Both the position numbers and the translations under genes were made by a program. This document shows, piece after piece, positions 8,209-56,222 of a DNA stretch of 60,335 nucleotides. The notes under the pieces are model-generated. The model worked only from the letters and a program-made list of their open reading frames with translations. It was not told the DNA's origin and searched no databases. This stretch comes from an uncultured Prevotellaceae bacterium (GTDB lineage: Bacteria; Bacteroidota; Bacteroidia; Bacteroidales; Bacteroidaceae): contig ONJJ01000018.1 of the NCBI GenBank assembly GCA_900318115.1, positions 1 to 60,335 on the forward strand. The letters are read 5' to 3'. The first letter of the stretch is position 1; the number at the start of each line of letters is the position of its first letter.

Positions 8209-9831
8209 TTAGTCCTTGATATTCGGTTCTTCGAGACCCAATCCTTTCTTCTTATCGACCACTTTCAGGACGAGTCCGAGCAACAGAGCAGCAACGCCGA
8301 GGCATGCAAGCATGACGAGCGGAGCGGTGTAGTTGTACTGGGTGGGGTCGGTGACGCCGGGGTTGGTCTTGTCGAGCACCTTGCCGATGAGCAAGGGGAA
8401 GAGCCAAAGGCCGATGTTCTGTATCCAGAAGATGAGGGCGTAGGCAGAGCCGATGACCTTGGCGTCCACGAGCTTGGGAACGCTGGGCCATAAGCTGGCG
8501 GGAACAAGGGAGAACGAGGCGCCCAGGACGAGGATGGTCAGATAGGCAATGGCGATGCCGCCGATGGCGTTGCCCTTGAAAGCGGGCAGCACGAAGGCGA
8601 AGGTCAGGTGGCATACGATGAGCAGCACAGAACCCAGCACAAGCATGGATGCGGCCTTGCCCTTATGGTCTACGTAGGAACCGAGAATCGGGGTGATGAG
8701 CACGGCGAGCAGGGGGAATACGGCAAAGATGCTCTCGGCGGACTGACGCATGAATCCCATATAGCAATAGGTGATGAGGGAGAGGATGCTGAGCGCGAGC
8801 AGGCCGTACTTGGCGGTAGCCTTCTTCTGGAAATTGCTGGCGAAGCCCGTGGCTGCCACAATGAGCATGATGACGTACTGAACAACGGTCACGCTGTTGC
8901 TGGCCCAGAAGGAATCGGCACCGGGAGCCGTGAGCGTCAGGTTGCATTGGAGCATATTGACGGCGTACTTCTGGAAGGGGAAGATGGCGCTGTAGTAGAG
9001 CACGCAGAGCAGCGCAACGAGCCAGAAACCACTGGAGGTCAGGATCTGACCGATGTCGCTGATCTTGAAGGGGTCATCTTTTTCCTCGGCCTCGCCGGTC
9101 TGCTGGTCGAGCTTGCGGTCCATAAAGAAATATACGATGGTCATCATCAAGGCGATGCACATCAGTACTACGCCGAAGGCAACAGCACGGCTGACACTGA
9201 CGACTCCGCCCAGACGTGCAAAGAACGGCGAGAAGATCATCACGGTGGCTACGCCTAAGCGGGCGAGTGCCATCTCAGACCCCATGGCAAGTGCCATCTC
9301 ACGTCCCTTGAACCACTTGACGATACCGCGTGAGACGGTGATGCCGCACATCTCGCAACCGCAACCGAAGATCATGAAGCCGCAGGCGGCGAACTTGGCT
9401 GAGGCGGGCATGCCCTCGTAGAAGGGGGAAACGCCTAGCTCCTCGAAGAGGGGGATGTAGTTGAGGTTGTTGGTGAACCATGTCTCGAGGCTGCTTCCGA
9501 TGAAGGCATCGCTGACAGCGTACCACTTGACGAGGGCACCAACGAGCATGACGGCGGCGGAGAGGATGGCGGTGAAGCGGACTCCCATTTTGTCGAGGAT
9601 GATGCCGGCAAAGATAAGGAAGAAGGCGAAGACATTGAGGAACACCTCAGAGCCTTGCATGGTGCCGAAGGCGGTGGAGTCCCAGCCACGGGTTTCGAGC
9701 ATCAGGTCCTTGATGGGGGAAAGGATGTCCATGAAAATGTAGCTGCAAAACATGGCCAGCGCCAGCAGCAGCAAGGCGGTCCAGCGCATGGCGGCGCTGT
9801 CGCGGAGGGTTTTTTGGATAGCTTGTGTCAT
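8209..9831 (-). CDS. MFS transporter
   Basis: About 540 residues with roughly twelve hydrophobic segments; the first follows RWTALLLLALAMFCSYIFMD and the last is PLVMLACLGVAALLLGLVLKVV. A long cytoplasmic loop (around DRKLDQQTGEAEEKDDPFKI) separates the two halves. Start choice: the frame is open to 9879, but the added 16 residues (MRGLLLPPRKSSNIHQ) come from a repeat hairpin and a G-rich tract, and MTQAIQKTLRDSAAMRW at 9831 is a normal cytoplasmic N-terminus. The substrate cannot be read from sequence. It follows the S9 peptidase on the same strand, which could mean peptide or amino-acid uptake, but a minisatellite separates them. Confidence 0.85.
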   Translation of the reverse strand: MTQAIQKTLRDSAAMRWTALLLLALAMFCSYIFMDILSPIKDLMLETRGWDSTAFGTMQGSEVFLNVFAFFLIFAGIILDKMGVRFTAILSAAVMLVGALVKWYAVSDAFIGSSLETWFTNNLNYIPLFEELGVSPFYEGMPASAKFAACGFMIFGCGCEMCGITVSRGIVKWFKGREMALAMGSEMALARLGVATVMIFSPFFARLGGVVSVSRAVAFGVVLMCIALMMTIVYFFMDRKLDQQTGEAEEKDDPFKISDIGQILTSSGFWLVALLCVLYYSAIFPFQKYAVNMLQCNLTLTAPGADSFWASNSVTVVQYVIMLIVAATGFASNFQKKATAKYGLLALSILSLITYCYMGFMRQSAESIFAVFPLLAVLITPILGSYVDHKGKAASMLVLGSVLLIVCHLTFAFVLPAFKGNAIGGIAIAYLTILVLGASFSLVPASLWPSVPKLVDAKVIGSAYALIFWIQNIGLWLFPLLIGKVLDKTNPGVTDPTQYNYTAPLVMLACLGVAALLLGLVLKVVDKKKGLGLEEPNIKD

Positions 9832-9872
9832 TTGATGGATATTTGAGGATTTGCGGGGGGGGAGGAGGAGAC

Positions 9873-9900
9873 CGCGCAAATATGCGCGGCACTCAACCGA
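9873..9900. repeat. Short palindromic repeat, copy 1 (5' of the MFS gene)
   Basis: CCGCGCAAATATGCGCGG, a 7-bp stem with a 4-base loop, followed by CACTCAACC. The same hairpin plus CAC-N-N-ACCC tail occurs at ~12,069 (in the S9 peptidase) and ~14,129 (in yidC), all in the same orientation and flanked by purine-rich sequence on the plus strand. Confidence 0.85.
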
Positions 9901-9910
9901 AGTTACTTTT

Positions 9911-10036
9911 TAGCTTGGAGGGAGGCGAAGGGAGCCTGGAGGGAGGCGAGTTTGGTGGAGGGAGGCGAGCTTGGTGGAGGGAGGCGAGCTTGGTGGAGGG
10001 AGGCGAACTTGGTGGAGGGAGGCGAACCTGGAGGCA
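9911..10036. repeat. 19-bp tandem repeat (minisatellite)
   Basis: About six copies of the 19-bp unit GGTGGAGGGAGGCGAGCTT, with point changes (GAGTTT, GAACTT, GAACCT), fill the gap between the S9 peptidase stop and the MFS gene. The plus strand is almost pure purine outside the TT/CT steps. No gene is seen in it. Confidence 0.95.
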
Positions 10037-10048
10037 GGCAAGGAGGCT

Positions 10049-12502
10049 TTACTTCAGCCAGCGGGCGAGCCATGAGAAGTAGGTGCGCTGCCAGAGGATG
10101 CCGTTCTGGGGTTTGAGGACCCAGTGGTTTTCGTCGGGGTAGAGGAGGAGTTCGGCAGGGATTCCCTTCATGCGGGCGGCATTGAAGGCGGACATGCCTT
10201 GGGTGGCGTTGATGCGGTAGTCCTTCTCGCCGTGGATGCAGAGGATGGGGGTGTCCCACTGGTCGACGAAGAGGTGTGGTGAGTTGCGATAGGTGCGGTC
10301 GGCGTTGGCGGTGCGATCTCGGTTCCAGTAGGCGTCGTCGTACTCCCAGTTGGAGAACCAGTTCTCCTCGGTCTCGGTGTACATGGCTTCGAGGTTGAAG
10401 GCTCCGTCGTGCGAGATGAAGCACTTGAAACGCTTGTCGTGGTGCCCGGCGAGGTAGTAAACGCTGAATCCTCCGAAGGATGCTCCTACGCAGCCGAGTC
10501 GGTCGCGGTCGACGTATGGGAGTGAATCACAGGCATCGTCGATGGCGCTGAGGTAGTCGCGCATGCACTGACCTGTCCAGTCGCCGGAGATTTCTTCGAG
10601 CCATTCCTGGCCGAAGCCGGGGAGGCCGCGGCGGTTGGGTGCGATGATGACATACCCCTGCGAGGCCATGATGTAGAAGTTCCATCGGTAGCTCCAGAAC
10701 TGCGAAACGGGCGATTGTGGACCTCCTTCGCAGAAGAGCAGGGTGGGGTACTTCTTTGTGGGGTCGAAGTGTGGGGGCTTGATAATCCAGTAGAGAAGCT
10801 GCTGGCCATCTGTGGTCGGGCACCAGCGCGGCTCGGAGGTGCCGGGGGCCAGCTGGGCGAGGATGTGGTCGTTCTCGGCGGTGATGCGGTTGCAGTCATC
10901 GACGGAATCGCCGTTCACACGTACCAGGTAGAGGTCTGCGGGGTGGAAAAAGTCGTGACGCTCCATAAGGAGGGTAGCGGTGGCGGCCTCCTCTCGCACA
11001 GACCCGGAGGCGGCTTCGGTTGTCTGGACGGCTGCAATATCTTGCTTAGAAGTGGTTGCAGAAGGGACGAGCTGGAGGGCACCCCAGTCGGCTTGGAGGT
11101 TGGTGAGTTGGGCGACTTGGCCCTGGAGGTTGGTGCGATAGAGGTTGACGGTGGCGTGCCACACACCTATAAAATAAATGGTGCGGCTGTCTTCGGCCCA
11201 GCAGTAGTCATCGACATTCGAGTCGAAGGATTCTGTGACATAGACCTTGGCCGCTTCTGTGGGTTCGTTGTCCAGTTGGCGAAGGTCATAGACGCAGAGG
11301 CGCTGGCGGTCGGCTTCGTAGCCGTCACGTTCCATGGAGAGCCACGCGACGTAGCGGCCGTCGGGCGAGAACTTGGGGTTCTGGTCGTAGCCTACTTGCT
11401 GGTCGAAGGGAGCGATTCTCTTGTTGATGGCTTGATACTTGAGTGTCTTGGTCGGATTGAGAAGGTTGTCGGTGTGATAGGCCAGTCCCTCGTCCGGCAC
11501 GACGTCGAACTCGCACCCGTTCTTGCAGAGGTTGCGGGTCCGGTCCATGTCACCGCTTTCGACATCGTAGAGGAAGATATCGGAATCGGTGCTGATGCTG
11601 TAGTCGAGTCCTGTCTTGCAGCGGCAGGTGAAGGCTATGAACTTGCTGTCCGGTGACCATGCCAGTTGTTCGATGCCTCCGAAGGGTTCCATGGGACATT
11701 CGTAGGGGTAGCCTTCCAGGATGTCAAATTCCTTGTTGGTGGCGAGGTCGAGGACAAAAGGATGTGGAATGTTCTCGACGTAGTGGTCCCAGTGGCGGTA
11801 CATGAGGTCTGTGATGACGCGGCCGGTGCTCTTTGGGAGGTCGGCCGGGCGTTCGGCAATGATGTCGTGGAAGGGTATGGATTTGATGATGATGACTTTC
11901 TTCTGGTCGGGGGAGAAGAGGAATCCTTCGACGGCGCCTTCGGTGTGGGTGAGTTGCTCGAGTGCCTTGCCTTGAGTGTTCATGGTCCAGACCTCACCTT
12001 CACGGGCAAAAGCGATGCGGTCATCGGAGAGCCAGACGGGGGAGGAGCCGAGGCCGAGGAGGGTGGATTCCGCGCAAATATGCGCGGCACCAGACCCTGA
12101 CGCCGAAGGGGAGGGAGAGGGGGATTTCCCCGCGGCTGAAGGGGAGGACACCTCGGCAGAGGGGGAGGTCGCCGAGGCTGAGGGGGAGGCGGAGGGAGAG
12201 GTGGGCGATGGGGAAGGGGAGGTGGCGGGGATGTCCTGGAGGTAGAGGAGGGTGTTGCTGCGGTTCTGCTCTACGCTGTAGTAGGTTACTTGATAGCAGA
12301 GTTGCTTGCCGCTGGGAGAGACGGCGTAGCTACCTATGCGGCCCATAGCCCAGAGGGCTTCGGGGGTGAGGGTGTCTGAGGCGAGTGTGATGTCGCTTCG
12401 GCGGATGAGGTTTTCGTCGGCAGAGTTGCCCGTGCATGAAGTGAGGGGGGCAACGGTGGCGAGAATGGCGGATGCGGATAGGATTTTCAATGCTGTTTTC
12501 AT
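10049..12502 (-). CDS. S9-family prolyl oligopeptidase lipoprotein (DPP/acylaminoacyl-peptidase-like) with a Ser/Pro-rich insertion
   Basis: 817 residues. Lipoprotein signal with lipobox LTSC (Cys23). A WD-like beta-propeller fills ~45-540 (PDQKKVIIIKS, SPDSKFIAFTC, SPDGRYVAWLS). The C-terminal alpha/beta hydrolase has nucleophile GASFGGFSVYY (Ser about 676), acid in CIHGEKDYRI (about 758) and His in DENHWVL (about 795). Such exported S9 enzymes trim peptides in the periplasm or at the surface. Odd: residues ~93-147 are a Ser/Pro/Ala stretch ending GAAHICAES, encoded by a CT-rich coding strand plus the palindromic repeat. It sits in a propeller loop between LLYLQDIP and LLGLGSSPVWLS, so the fold and catalytic triad should survive. 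The reading frame is intact. Confidence 0.92.
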   Translation of the reverse strand: MKTALKILSASAILATVAPLTSCTGNSADENLIRRSDITLASDTLTPEALWAMGRIGSYAVSPSGKQLCYQVTYYSVEQNRSNTLLYLQDIPATSPSPSPTSPSASPSASATSPSAEVSSPSAAGKSPSPSPSASGSGAAHICAESTLLGLGSSPVWLSDDRIAFAREGEVWTMNTQGKALEQLTHTEGAVEGFLFSPDQKKVIIIKSIPFHDIIAERPADLPKSTGRVITDLMYRHWDHYVENIPHPFVLDLATNKEFDILEGYPYECPMEPFGGIEQLAWSPDSKFIAFTCRCKTGLDYSISTDSDIFLYDVESGDMDRTRNLCKNGCEFDVVPDEGLAYHTDNLLNPTKTLKYQAINKRIAPFDQQVGYDQNPKFSPDGRYVAWLSMERDGYEADRQRLCVYDLRQLDNEPTEAAKVYVTESFDSNVDDYCWAEDSRTIYFIGVWHATVNLYRTNLQGQVAQLTNLQADWGALQLVPSATTSKQDIAAVQTTEAASGSVREEAATATLLMERHDFFHPADLYLVRVNGDSVDDCNRITAENDHILAQLAPGTSEPRWCPTTDGQQLLYWIIKPPHFDPTKKYPTLLFCEGGPQSPVSQFWSYRWNFYIMASQGYVIIAPNRRGLPGFGQEWLEEISGDWTGQCMRDYLSAIDDACDSLPYVDRDRLGCVGASFGGFSVYYLAGHHDKRFKCFISHDGAFNLEAMYTETEENWFSNWEYDDAYWNRDRTANADRTYRNSPHLFVDQWDTPILCIHGEKDYRINATQGMSAFNAARMKGIPAELLLYPDENHWVLKPQNGILWQRTYFSWLARWLK
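12060..12245. repeat. In-frame palindromic repeat copy 2 plus CT-rich low-complexity tract inside the S9 peptidase gene
   Basis: The hairpin CCGCGCAAATATGCGCGG lies near 12,069, followed on the plus strand by CACCAGACCCTGACGCC and then ~140 bases of GGGGAGG/GCGGAGG-type purine repeats. Read on the coding strand it yields Ser-Pro-rich repeats ending in AAHICAE, the same peptide as in YidC. Confidence 0.9.
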
Positions 12503-12510
12503 TGTTGCGG

Positions 12511-12630
12511 GGTGGCTCCGGCAGGGTAGCGCGGGGCGCTGATTATGAGAGGTGCTTTCTTCTTCTGGTGGCTCCGGGTGGGTAGCGCTGGACGCTGATT
12601 ATGAGGGGCTTTCTACTTCTGGTGGCGGAG
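12511..12630. repeat. 54/56-bp tandem duplication in the yidC to S9-peptidase gap
   Basis: Copy 1 (12511-12566) and copy 2 (12567-12620) share GGTGGCTCCGG, GGGTAGCGC, CGCTGATTATGAG and GGCTTTCT/CTTCT; a third partial copy begins with GGTGGCGGAG. The remaining gap to 12,713 is G-rich with no gene or clear terminator. Confidence 0.9.
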
Positions 12631-12713
12631 AGGATTGTCACGCAGAGTAGAGGACCTACGCTGGAGGGAGGCCCCGCGTGAGGGAGGGTGTCACACAGAA
12701 GGGAGGAATGGGG

Positions 12714-14681
12714 TTACTTCTTTTGCTGGCGTTGGGCTTCTTCGGCCATCTTCTGGAGGGCTTCGAGTCGTGCGGCCATGCCGGATTGCTTCTTGGGGTT
12801 GTTGGCGTTGCGGGCCTTGTAGGCTTCGAGCTGCGCGAGGAGCTTGTCGTCATCGGTGGTCTTGCGGAGGAACCACATGATGAGCACGGTGGTGAGTCCG
12901 GAGAGGAAGTAGTAGTAGTTGAGGCCTGAACTGTAGTTGTTGAGGACAAAGAAGAACATGAGTGGCATGAGGTACATCATCCAACGCATCATCTTCATGC
13001 TCTGTTCCTGTTCGGGGGACATGGCGGCGCTCTGTTGCTGCTTCATGCTGATCCAGGTCGTTGCAATCTGCATGATGCAGAAGAGTACGCAGAAGATGCT
13101 GAGGTGGTCTCCGATGAGCCAGATGTCCTTGCCCCAGCTGATGACGTCGTCGTAGGCGCTGAGGTCGTCAGCCCAGAGGAAGCTCTGGCCGCGCAGCTCG
13201 ATGGCGTTGGGGACGAAGTTGAAGAGAGCTATCCAGATGGGCGCCTGAATGAGTGCAGGCAGGCATCCGCCCATGGGCGATACGCCGTATTGGGAGTAGA
13301 GTTGCATCATCTCCTGCTGCTTCTTCATGGCGTCTTCCTGCTTGGGATATTTCTTGTTGAGTTCATCCATCTTGGGCTTGAGCACGCGCATGCGGGCGCT
13401 GGCGAGGTAGCTCTTCTTGGTGGCGGGATAGACGAGTGCCTTGACGATGATGGTCAGCAGCAGGAGTACGAGTCCCATATGGAGGCCGAAGCCTTTGAGC
13501 CAGTCGAAGAGGTAGATGATGAACCATCGGTTGATCCACCTGACGATGGGCCATCCGAGGTAAACGAGGTCCTCGAGTTCGAGGTCGTGGTCGGGGTTGA
13601 GGCTGAGGTCGTTGGTGGCCTTGAGAGTGTGGAAATCATTGGGTCCGAGGTACATCTGGAGCTGGGTGGGCTGCTGGCCGGTGGGGTCGAAGGCGGTCTG
13701 CATGGTTGCCTCGTAGTTCTTCAGGTAGCCCTGTCCTTTCTGGTAGAGTTTGGAGCTGAAGTGGGCGTTTGTGAGTTGCTGGTGGCTGATAAGTACGGCA
13801 GAGAAGAACTGGTTCTTGAATGCGACCCAGTCGAGGGGTTCTTCGATGTCCTTCTCCTTGTCGCTGGTCTCGCTGAGGTTGTCTGTGCTGCCGTCGGCTT
13901 CGTGGTAGCGGATGCAAGCGTAGCGCTGCTCGAAGTCGAAGCCTTTCTCGAGCTGGCGTGCGCGGTCGGTCCACCGGAGGTCGAGGGTGCGCATGGAGGG
14001 GGCGAAGTGGTTGGCTATGCCGCGGGCGGTGATGATCATATCGACCATGTAGGAGCCGGGGCGCAGGTGGTAGTCGATGTCGAGGGAACCTCCGTCGGAG
14101 AGGGGGAGGCGGAGGGTGAGGGAGTTTTCCGCGCAAATATGCGCGGCACCCAACCCTGCTGCGGAGGGGGAGGAAGCTTCAGGGGAAGAGGAAGAAACTT
14201 CAGGGGAGGGGGGAGCGAGATGGGTGGGGGAGGCAATCTGGAAGTAGAGGTCTCGGGTGACGATGTTCTCGTTCTTTCCGGCGAGGGAAAGGGTGAGGGC
14301 GGCGTCTTCCTTGGTGAGGAGCCGGACGGGCTGCTTTTGCTGGTCGAGGTGGTTCTTGACCACGGCTTCCTCAATCATGCCTCCGTGGGTGTTGATGGTG
14401 AGGCGGACGAGGTCGTTTTCGAGGGTTATGAGTTGGTCTGTGCCCTGGCTTGCTGCAAAGAGTGCAGAGGTGGAGTCGAGCGGGGCAGATGCGGCTGCGG
14501 CCTGCTGGCGGGCTGCGGCCTGTGCTGCTTCGGCTTCCATGGCCATTTGCTGCTGCAGGGCAGCGATGGAGTCGCGCTCGTGTGCGGCTCGGAGTTGTTC
14601 TTCAGAGGGGCGGCTGTACCAGGTGAATGCTATGAGAACAGCGGCCATTAGGACGAATCCTGTGACGGTGTTTTTATCCAT
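12714..14681 (-). CDS. yidC: Membrane protein insertase YidC, with an in-frame repeat insertion
   Basis: 655 residues. The N-terminal TM anchor (residues 5-21) is followed by an Ala/Gln-rich coiled region (30-65), the periplasmic P1 beta-sandwich (~85-350) and the conserved five-TM core (~375-600): WLKGFGLHMGLVLLLLTIIVK, ARMRVLKPKMDELNKKY, SPMGGCLPALIQAPIWIALF, FVLNNYSSGLNYYY. The C-terminal tail is Lys/Gln-rich. It inserts inner-membrane proteins with or without SecYEG. Odd: residues ~153-186 (LAPPSPEVSSSSPEASS...AAHICAEN) are a low-complexity insertion in P1 carrying the peptide also seen in the S9 peptidase. Orthologues I recall run straight from the strand before it to TLRLPLSDGGSLDIDY. 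The gene is otherwise intact and presumably functional. Confidence 0.97.
   Translation of the reverse strand: MDKNTVTGFVLMAAVLIAFTWYSRPSEEQLRAAHERDSIAALQQQMAMEAEAAQAAARQQAAAASAPLDSTSALFAASQGTDQLITLENDLVRLTINTHGGMIEEAVVKNHLDQQKQPVRLLTKEDAALTLSLAGKNENIVTRDLYFQIASPTHLAPPSPEVSSSSPEASSPSAAGLGAAHICAENSLTLRLPLSDGGSLDIDYHLRPGSYMVDMIITARGIANHFAPSMRTLDLRWTDRARQLEKGFDFEQRYACIRYHEADGSTDNLSETSDKEKDIEEPLDWVAFKNQFFSAVLISHQQLTNAHFSSKLYQKGQGYLKNYEATMQTAFDPTGQQPTQLQMYLGPNDFHTLKATNDLSLNPDHDLELEDLVYLGWPIVRWINRWFIIYLFDWLKGFGLHMGLVLLLLTIIVKALVYPATKKSYLASARMRVLKPKMDELNKKYPKQEDAMKKQQEMMQLYSQYGVSPMGGCLPALIQAPIWIALFNFVPNAIELRGQSFLWADDLSAYDDVISWGKDIWLIGDHLSIFCVLFCIMQIATTWISMKQQQSAAMSPEQEQSMKMMRWMMYLMPLMFFFVLNNYSSGLNYYYFLSGLTTVLIMWFLRKTTDDDKLLAQLEAYKARNANNPKKQSGMAARLEALQKMAEEAQRQQKK
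14105..14225. repeat. In-frame palindromic repeat copy 3 plus CT-rich tract inside yidC
   Basis: The hairpin CCGCGCAAATATGCGCGG (about 14,129-14,146) is followed by CACCCAACCCTGCTGCGG and then purine-rich plus-strand sequence (GAGGGGGAGGAAGC, GGGGAAGAGGAAG). Same order and orientation as copy 2, and in frame in the host gene. Confidence 0.9.
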
Positions 14682-45002: not shown

Positions 45003-45266
45003 CCTTACTCCCCCTTTTCCCCCTTTCCCCCTCCTTTTTTCCCCCTCCTTTTTTCCTCCTCCTTCTTTCCTTCATCCCCTCCTCCTTCTTTCCTTCATCC
45101 CCTCATCCCTTCTTTCCTTCATCCTCTCATCCCTTCTTTCCCTCATCCCTTCTTTTCTTCATCCCCCTTCTTTCCTTCATCCCCCTTCTCCTTCCCTCTT
45201 TTCCGTAACCCCTTTCCCCCTATCTTTTCCCTTTTCCCTTCCTTCTCTTTTTCCCCTTCTTCTTGC
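45003..45266. repeat. Pyrimidine tract of ~260 bp
   Basis: Almost every plus-strand base is C or T, apart from rare A/G steps (mostly CAT). Imperfect 16-17-bp repeats of TTCTTTCCTTCATCCCC recur in its middle. No gene is seen; the frames are simple-sequence peptides. The remaining bases to 45,431 hold the porin promoter. Confidence 0.92.
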
Positions 45267-54305: not shown

Positions 54306-55094
54306 ATGAAAAAGTATATTTTGGACTTGGTCCTTCGGCGTTCGACCCAACCTCGTCCCGGCTATGTCCTTTTGCAGCTGACTAATCCAGAAAAGCCGCT
54401 GCCGGAGATGCTTCCTGGTCAGTTCGTGGAGGTGCGCGTCGATGGTTCTCCATCGACTTTTCTGCGACGTCCAATCAGTATCAACCTTGTCAACCGCCAG
54501 CATAACGAACTTTGGTTGCTCGTGCACGCCGTGGGTGCTGGCACGCGGGCTTTGGCTGCTCTCTCGGAGGGGGCGGTACTCAATGTCGTCCTACCGCTGG
54601 GACGTGGGTTCACGTTGCCTGAAGATTCCTCACGGGAAAACCGTGAGGCACGGTATTTACTTGTGGGTGGAGGCGTAGGCACCGCTCCGTTGCTCTATCT
54701 GGGGCAGGAACTGGTGGCACGTGGCTGCAAACCCACATTCCTCTTGGGTGCCCGCTCCGCCGATGATCTCTTGCAGGTGGATGATTTCCGGCGTTTTGGC
54801 GAGGTCTTTCTGACCACAGAGGATGGTTCTGCCGGCGAGCGTGGTTTCGTCACCCAGCACAGCCTCTGGAAGGCTGCCGCCTTCACTCGCATCTGTACTT
54901 GCGGACCCAAACCGATGATGGTTGCCGTGGCCCGCTTGGCCCGCGAGAAAGGAATCCCCAGCGAGGCTTCGCTTGAGAACATGATGGCCTGCGGCCTTGG
55001 TGCCTGCCTCTGCTGTGTCGAGGACACGGTGGACGGCAATGTCTGCGTCTGCAAGGAAGGCCCTGTTTTTTCCACCGATAAACTCAAATGGTAA
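54306..55094 (+). CDS. pyrK: Dihydroorotate dehydrogenase B electron-transfer subunit PyrK
   Basis: 262 residues. FAD domain with [26 protein letters not shown], then the NAD domain with [18 protein letters not shown] and [20 protein letters not shown]. The 2Fe-2S ligands lie near the C-terminus in [17 protein letters not shown] and VCVCKEG (about residues 227-250). It passes electrons from PyrD to NAD. Its stop overlaps the pyrD ATG by one base (TAATG), so the two subunits are coupled. Confidence 0.96.
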
Positions 55095-56065: not shown

Positions 56066-56222
56066 CTCACCTTTCACCCTTCACCCTTCATCCTTCACCC
56101 TTCACCCTTCACCCTTCACCCATCACCTTTCACCCTTCACCCCTCACCCTTCATCCTTCACCTTTCACCCATCACCTTTCACCCTTCATCCTTCACCCAT
56201 CACCTTTCACCCCTCAATCCTT
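56066..56222. repeat. Heptanucleotide tandem array (about 21 copies of CCTTCAC variants)
   Basis: Units are CCTTCAC, CTTTCAC, CCATCAC, CCTTCAT and CCCTCAC, keeping the 7-base period throughout; CCATCAC-CTTTCAC pairs recur three times. It fills most of the pyrD to ComEA-like gene gap. All frames are simple-sequence peptides. Confidence 0.95.

Follow-up and report, generated by a model that had tools for sequence, protein, structure and literature searches.

A 60,335-nucleotide stretch of DNA from an uncultured Prevotellaceae bacterium (contig ONJJ01000018.1, assembly GCA_900318115.1), here called the window as a whole, contains three copies of a short palindromic element, two of which are inserted in frame in conserved proteins. 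Its genome (G000; 3.33 Mb in 74 contigs, 87% complete) holds 44 copies, the majority of them in frame within genes. It is highly probable that the element is a non-autonomous palindrome of the repetitive extragenic palindrome (REP) type, mobilised by a cognate REP-associated tyrosine transposase (RAYT), and that the in-frame copies are survivors in permissive loops of proteins. We assign the element to the REP type because it is associated with one clade of RAYTs and is found inside the RAYT genes themselves.

The 18-mer CCGCGCAAATATGCGCGG, which forms the hairpin, has exactly three exact matches in the window, all on the + strand (9872-9889, 12070-12087 and 14129-14146). A mean of 0.10 matches with up to 3 mismatches was found in 100 dinucleotide shuffles of the window. 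In the entire G000, 5 exact copies are present, and the reversed control pattern gave 0. The copies, the genes around them and the complete inserts are as follows.

9872 to 9899, + strand: element copy 1, CCGCGCA-AATA-TGCGCGG with tail CACTCAACCG; the MFS gene begins with its ATG about 40 nt downstream of it in gene direction
9936 to 10039, + strand: G-rich array with a period of 19 (about 5.7 tandem copies), tail side of copy 1
8209 to 9831, - strand: MFS transporter gene (MFS_1, E 8e-19; start codon picked by eye)
12070 to 12097, + strand: element copy 2, keeping the frame of the S9 peptidase gene, which is coded on the opposite strand
12068 to 12226, - strand: complete in-frame S9 insert, Ser/Pro-rich repeats with the element at the C-terminal edge (borders approximate)
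10049 to 12502, - strand: S9 peptidase gene (Peptidase_S9, E 1.4e-51)
14129 to 14156, + strand: element copy 3, in frame in yidC (exact 18-mer and R1 match)
14127 to 14225, - strand: complete in-frame YidC insert, about residues 153-185, a Ser/Pro-rich stretch with the element (borders approximate)
12714 to 14681, - strand: yidC (60KD_IMP, E 3.1e-49; YidC_periplas, E 5.1e-29)

The original prediction had described this hairpin as present three times in a single orientation, once ahead of the MFS gene and twice inside genes whose frame is kept with the peptide GAAHICAE. All of this was confirmed, with the start of the first copy moved from 9873 to 9872. The tail had been given as CAC-N-N-ACCC and needs correction; in the three copies it reads CACTCAACCG, CACCAGACCC and CACCCAACCC, with CACCCAACCG as the consensus of the family. 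In the S9 peptidase the element encodes GSGAAHICAE (residues 136-145 of 817), and in YidC, a protein essential in most bacteria, GLGAAHICAE (residues 176-185 of 655). The common AAHICAE had been put forward as a feature of both proteins. It is indeed present in both, but only because both carry the same stem in the same, commonest phase; other copies use all three phases. Model R1, built from copies of the element, recovered the three window copies at E ≤ 2.1e-13, and a fourth was not found above noise in the window (next best match, E 0.0092).

A search of the whole genome had been proposed as a check on the insertion idea, which survived it: R1, trained on 38 of the 44 G000 copies that it counts, found 44 places at the threshold of E ≤ 5.1e-7, the next best match having an E of 0.0023. 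The element consists of a hairpin, N6-R-AATA-Y-N6, followed by the tail CACCCAACCG, giving a 28-nt core with a 7-bp stem. On what is in most cases the coding strand, a conserved foot of 10 nt, 5'-CGGTTGGGTG, adjoins the stem. In an alignment of 38 copies, no variation is seen in the AATA loop, in the C-G pair two positions out from the loop, or in the C..C and AC of the tail. The rest of the stem varies in a coordinated manner. Changes on both arms are seen in many G000 copies with up to 3 mismatches (TCGCGC..GCGCGA, CCGCAC..GTGCGG, CCGCGCG..CGCGCGG), and loop plus tail with a free stem matched 52 places in G000 versus 11 for the reversed control (up to 2 mismatches). Among 30 distinct rows, 94.3% of the stem cells are paired (68.6% in shuffled alignments), 50 cells are double changes (14.1 shuffled) and covariation amounts to 0.632 (0.196 shuffled); none of 500 shuffles reached any of these three values. 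The number of pairs with a double change and the number of further pair types were not above the shuffles in this 30-row test.

Some copies resemble each other beyond the core. A flank of at least 24 nt is common to 10 copies and some other copy (9 of 946 pairs), such as C34:59420 and C25:67299, with about 26 and 25 nt in common; hence, the mobile unit can exceed the core. These shared flanks are as copying would leave them. A collection of 39 loci from 12 genomes, chosen by DNA pattern alone, yielded 56 copies. By their titles, all 39 stretches come from Bacteroidales metagenome genomes, and many of the titles name the rumen. Across the genus, the element was detected in 15 of 139 genomes including G000 (E ≤ 1e-6, stricter filters), in 0 of 24 genomes from other families of the order and, using an extended pattern, in no stretch of the viral contigs. 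Copies in G000 are mostly single; inverted pairs with the feet inward occur at C42:69204/69435 in G000 and at the collection loci L059, L063, L064, L065, L066 and L083. One locus (RUG13587, L069:2597-2792) has five tandem direct copies spaced by 41-43 nt.

In G000, 28 of the 44 copies lie in frame within 21 genes with family support, which contrasts with the extragenic majority expected of REPs and bears out the earlier suggestion that the palindrome is tolerated in frame in conserved proteins. Three copies each are carried by phosphoglycerate mutase and an FtsZ paralogue, and two each by a RimO-like protein, a DPPIV-type peptidase and a RAYT, the latter counted as family-supported on an NCBIfam match below its cut-off. 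Single copies are found in YidC, the S9 peptidase, IlvD, AroE, RmlD, a methionine synthase activation domain, an agmatine-deiminase-like protein, an alpha-2-macroglobulin, a sulfatase, GH97, GH2, DUF6057, an AMP-ligase, a U32 peptidase, a TonB receptor and a PIF1 helicase. The stem of the in-gene copy C51:2652 (30.5 bits) is imperfect. A match in Tex (C68:8276) was left out of the 28; it falls within the S1 domain (648-718) with no evident extra length and was taken as native. Fifteen copies lie outside family-supported genes, four of them just upstream of the genes for MFS, GH36, MacB and RAYT. The 24 copies on the strand opposite their gene are distributed over the reading phases as 16, 4 and 4 (chi-square p 0.0025). 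With RAYT and Tex excluded, the element runs opposite to the gene strand in 19 of 20 genes (p 4e-5).

G000 has two FtsZ-like genes, C38:38506-39939 and C39:29361-30380. The C38 gene has its three elements in the C-terminal linker, and its best relatives are in G016 and G003; element peptides were found in none of 6 aligned relatives. FtsZ was rejected as an example of an essential carrier, the carrier being the second FtsZ-like paralogue and the other FtsZ-like gene lying at C39:29361.

A comparison with orthologues from relatives had been named as another check on the insertion idea, and the idea held. The presence of the element was read from protein alignments, and R1 was then run on the DNA of the same loci. 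YidC is present in 39 of 41 genus genomes; of the 38 relatives in which YidC was matched, 20 were aligned. The element is absent from all 20 of these same-genus orthologues, some of which have a few additional residues in the loop. In the S9 peptidase it is absent from 17 of 18 same-genus orthologues. The remaining one, G018, carries an element at the same site, where its stem (CCGCGCT-AATA-AGCGCGG) differs from that of G000 (CCGCGCA-AATA-TGCGCGG). Phosphoglycerate mutase has 666 residues in G000, 402-449 in 24 of 26 orthologues, 650 in G016 and 581 in G003, and all three G000 inserts are absent from all 26. On the DNA of these 46 loci, R1 gave strong matches in G018 alone, one in the S9 gene and one upstream of yidC, and one weak match elsewhere in G029 (E 0.0036). 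In the inserts compared, the element lies at the C-terminal edge, adjoining native sequence or a few residues away from it. As far as the aligned sequences tell, an ancestral origin of the inserts is refuted for these three genes.

The candidate enzyme is a RAYT encoded at C42:68654-70057, which contains two elements in frame and a third at the gene start. Pfam Y1_Tnp detected three genes in G000 and missed this one, probably because of its in-gene insert and its divergence. The C40 RAYT was considered as the cognate enzyme and dropped, since its in-gene hairpin belongs to another class; the C42 RAYT fits instead. A profile for long RAYTs (A3) matched 32 of 47 genomes, in many of them with multiple copies. 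From a larger set of RAYT matches, 62 were used as tree rows and 19 further pieces were placed. Nine RAYT genes from nine genomes contain the element (R1 E ≤ 5.4e-13, best match per gene), located between the HuH and tyrosine motifs. In the 62-row tree (columns at least 70% filled) these nine constitute exactly one clade, clade 1, with an SH-aLRT (approximate likelihood ratio test) value of 100. This distribution takes 1 change versus 8.6 when shuffled, and none of 500 shuffles was as clustered. Many RAYTs of the other clades carry different hairpins, typical of their clade, at the same place between the HuH and Y motifs. Of the 39 loci chosen by DNA pattern alone, 8 have the element inside an intact RAYT; at a ninth, L058, the nearby RAYT belongs to another clade and is separated from the element by about 570 nt. 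R1 found no element at the RAYT loci L284-L287. A clade-1 RAYT is present in 10 of 14 element-bearing genomes (9 intact, plus a 124-residue piece in G062) and, as far as sampled, in 0 of 33 others. These co-occurrence counts should be read with the choice of genomes in mind, the named ones having been selected for holding the element and two of the 33, G003 and G029, giving weak matches to R1 (E 2e-5 and 2.5e-4).

Clade-1 RAYTs share the motifs DHFH, W-E/Q-K/R-G (WEKG/WERG/WQKG) and Y-V/I-x-DNP (YVRDNP/YIHDNP) as well as a C-terminal extension of roughly 150 residues. NCBIfam REP_Tyr_transpos matched at E 3.5e-10 and 1.1e-10, and the C40 RAYT at 6.5e-14, each time below the cut-off of the family. 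PDB profiles matched the Y1 transposases 2xm3, 2xma and 2xo6 (E about 1.5e-4); we take 2xm3 and the related Y1 structures to be ISDra2. The C-terminal extension (e.g., L063:2849-3943) has a weak likeness to DprA (PDB profile, E 0.085), and the fusion of a HuH nuclease to such a DprA-like part would, if true, deserve attention. Long-RAYT matches lie at nine places in G000 (C10, C20, C26, C30, C40, two in C42, C43 and C55), one of them with an internal stop.

Many copies border on tandem repeats, and they do so on one side. In element orientation, 30 of the 44 G000 copies have an array that begins no more than 60 nt away on the tail side, and 5 have one that ends within 60 nt on the non-tail side (binomial 30/35, p 2.2e-5). 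The 56 copies of the collection behave alike, with arrays on the tail side in 26 and on the other side in 6 (p 5e-4). Copies that share one array (C38, C19) and the pair in the RAYT are non-independent in the counts of copies. The repeat units vary between copies, and several in relatives are not purine-rich, for example TTTCAAC and GTGTTAAC. At C37, C38, C19, L069 and L072 the unit includes part or all of the element. In these cases the duplication took place after the arrival of the element, because the unit contains its sequence.

We propose the following course of events. A clade-1 RAYT, as a HuH/Y1 transposase, very probably moves the element as single-stranded DNA; this catalysis and the single-strand route are modelled on the TnpA_REP chemistry described in the available text of PMC6006769. 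A copy that enters a gene would be kept only if the frame stays open and the peptide falls into a permissive loop, and such selection would account for the in-frame inserts in YidC, the S9 peptidase and about 19 other genes. The tandem repeat on the foot side may grow there after insertion, or may partly arrive with the element, and would encode the Ser/Pro-rich segment. More tentatively, and with the balance of our judgement against it, the REP hairpin could act as a seed of protein evolution, nicking or re-ligation at the foot by the RAYT, or stalling of the replication fork, causing the one-sided growth of repeats. Each insertion would then become a growing in-frame disordered segment of a housekeeping enzyme, and the genome would hold several RAYT/REP pairs, each RAYT gene marked by its own hairpin.

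Several observations weigh against a REP-type element moved by this RAYT and coupled to repeats. The empty-site comparison covers YidC, the S9 peptidase and phosphoglycerate mutase, i.e., 5 of the 28 in-gene copies. The NCBIfam and Pfam scores of the RAYT are lacking or fall short of the curated cut-offs, the foot departs from GT[AG]G, and the L319 RAYT, of another clade, has a weak in-gene match (E 0.0058). Four genomes, G018 (with 48 element matches), G010, G019 and G071, have the element and no clade-1 RAYT in their draft assemblies; there the RAYT is either lost, unassembled or not needed. The strand bias relative to genes agrees with local GC skew in 38 of 44 copies, and an effect of replication is inseparable from a bias in gene orientation because in the window the skew tends to run with the direction of the genes. 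The bias may come from replication, from transcription or from selection against G-rich mRNA. Finally, repeats are not strictly linked to the element: in 451 kb, 173 merged arrays lie more than 100 nt from any copy and 38 lie nearer, and the YidC loop that carries the insert in G000 holds element-free repeats in G016, G019 and G075, so that repeats can arise without the element.

The abundance of such arrays and the element-free repeats in YidC, together with an element-free repeat insert near site 1 of the G018 phosphoglycerate mutase, would fit a different order of events, in which the element lands in or beside existing minisatellites and the repeats are its target and not its product. We consider this rather unlikely. 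An element that lands inside an array would be expected to have repeats to its left and right, whereas here they are mostly one-sided; a long repeat is found at phosphoglycerate mutase sites 2 and 3 in 0 of 26 orthologues (site 3 is longer by about 5-20 residues in several); and at the five loci where the unit contains part or all of the element, duplication is the later event.

Other hairpins also occur at the edges of arrays. Among the 173 distant arrays, 36 are strongly strand-biased, and 6 of the 36 have another hairpin at the same edge, in most cases close to [G/A]CGG-GAAAA-CCG[C/T] followed by CAC. Of the triplets that adjoin 73 long perfect hairpins in 477 kb, with both flanks counted, CAC is the most frequent (16 versus at most 6 for any other). 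Among 12 of the 16 CAC-tailed hairpins (4 with other loops dropped), 5 have an array beginning on the side of the tail and 1 has an array ending on the opposite side. A second hairpin class, CCTCACGGGAAAACCGTGAGG followed by CAC, is present in the window at 54628-54648 (+) within the open reading frame 54306-55094; with the bases read by eye, the frame of a dehydrogenase-subunit-like protein seems to be kept. Hairpins like it are found at L107, L110, L113 (in tandem), L115, L197, L289, L291 and L292. A hairpin CCCTCCCT..AGGGAGGG stands beside purine-rich arrays at L116:5098-5245 and L202:5088-5141 and perhaps represents a third class. The window also has pyrimidine-rich tandem arrays with no element nearby, at 45009-45189 and 56067-56216.

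A covarying stem, an orientation biased in 19 of 20 genes and the copies just upstream of start codons could also be expected of a functional RNA or a terminator placed in genes for regulation. Against this, an Rfam scan of the window returned one tRNA and one 5S rRNA only, with no match at the hairpins. No T-run adjoins the stems of the copies inspected, the positions are mostly mid-gene and presence in the genus is patchy; a regulatory role is therefore improbable. In its behaviour the element matches Rickettsia palindromic elements (RPEs), which are palindromic, multicopy and in frame in conserved genes, the carrier enzyme gmk having been shown active (PMC2229807, available text). This likeness, which the original prediction had pointed out, holds for the in-frame behaviour and not for the orphan status, a REP-type element with a likely cognate RAYT being at hand. 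A true RPE or a horizontally acquired relative is very improbable: RPEs measure 105-146 bp, compared here by length and not by RPE sequence, whereas our core has 28 nt and lacks CGTC; in the same text they appear without RAYT or tandem-repeat coupling and belong to another phylum, whereas the 39 collected stretches all bear Bacteroidales titles and the RAYT clade linked to the element is a local one. Relatives do have low-complexity segments that lack the element, but that ancestral segments converged through codon bias with no inserted element can hardly be credited, given the same hairpin and 10-nt tail in unrelated genes, in three phases and in leaders, and the clean empty sites at YidC, S9 (except G018) and phosphoglycerate mutase.

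A REP-type element moved by its RAYT can be placed among known systems, as far as the available texts of the sources describe them. The claim that the element has no named counterpart in Bacteroidales was too strong, since RAYT subclasses with REPs (PMC6006769, Quentin 2018) and CGTC repeats (PMC3733652, Di Nocera 2013) have been reported in Bacteroidetes. The former documents REPs that sit in frame in tnpA_REP genes, between the HuH and Y motifs. The latter describes REPs inside conserved genes, possibly neutral in linkers or loops, while most REPs are intergenic; it lists the CGTC class without transposase association (Table 1) and assigns the short RPE-4 and RPE-6 to CGTC repeats. Our element resembles the REP/REPIN and RAYT subclass 2.4 system in its short footed hairpin, dispersed copies, inverted pairs and position in frame in a HuH/Y1 gene. 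The clade-1 motifs, however, differ from those of subclass 2.4 (NH[IFV]H, WQ, YIxNNP; PMC6006769, Table 1). The foot places GGTG beside the stem and ends in GGGTG, in contrast to the GT[AG]G of canonical GTAG REPs and of the systems in PMC6006769, and the CGTC tag is absent from the element ends in the 38-copy alignment. The long C-terminal extension of the RAYT, the intragenic majority and the one-sided repeats are further contrasts with REP systems. With the GTAG and CGTC REPs of PMC3733652 our family shares copies inside conserved genes; it differs in having neither tag and a largely intragenic location, and from the CGTC class in its association with a transposase. In a limited literature search, no report was found of the foot CGGTTGGGTG, of this RAYT clade or of a mostly intragenic family with repeats on one side. 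Intragenic and in-frame REPs and REPs inside tnpA_REP are thus already known, and what is unusual is the foot, the intragenic majority and the one-sided repeats.

REPs take their name from an extragenic location; in this one genome, by contrast, the copies of a REP-type family lie mostly inside genes and in frame, and the likely enzyme is pinpointed through a clade-exact association. RAYT/REP pairs would thereby come to include a foot that belongs to neither the GTAG nor the CGTC superfamily of PMC3733652. The one-sided link to repeats suggests a testable route by which short mobile DNA may give rise to low-complexity protein segments.

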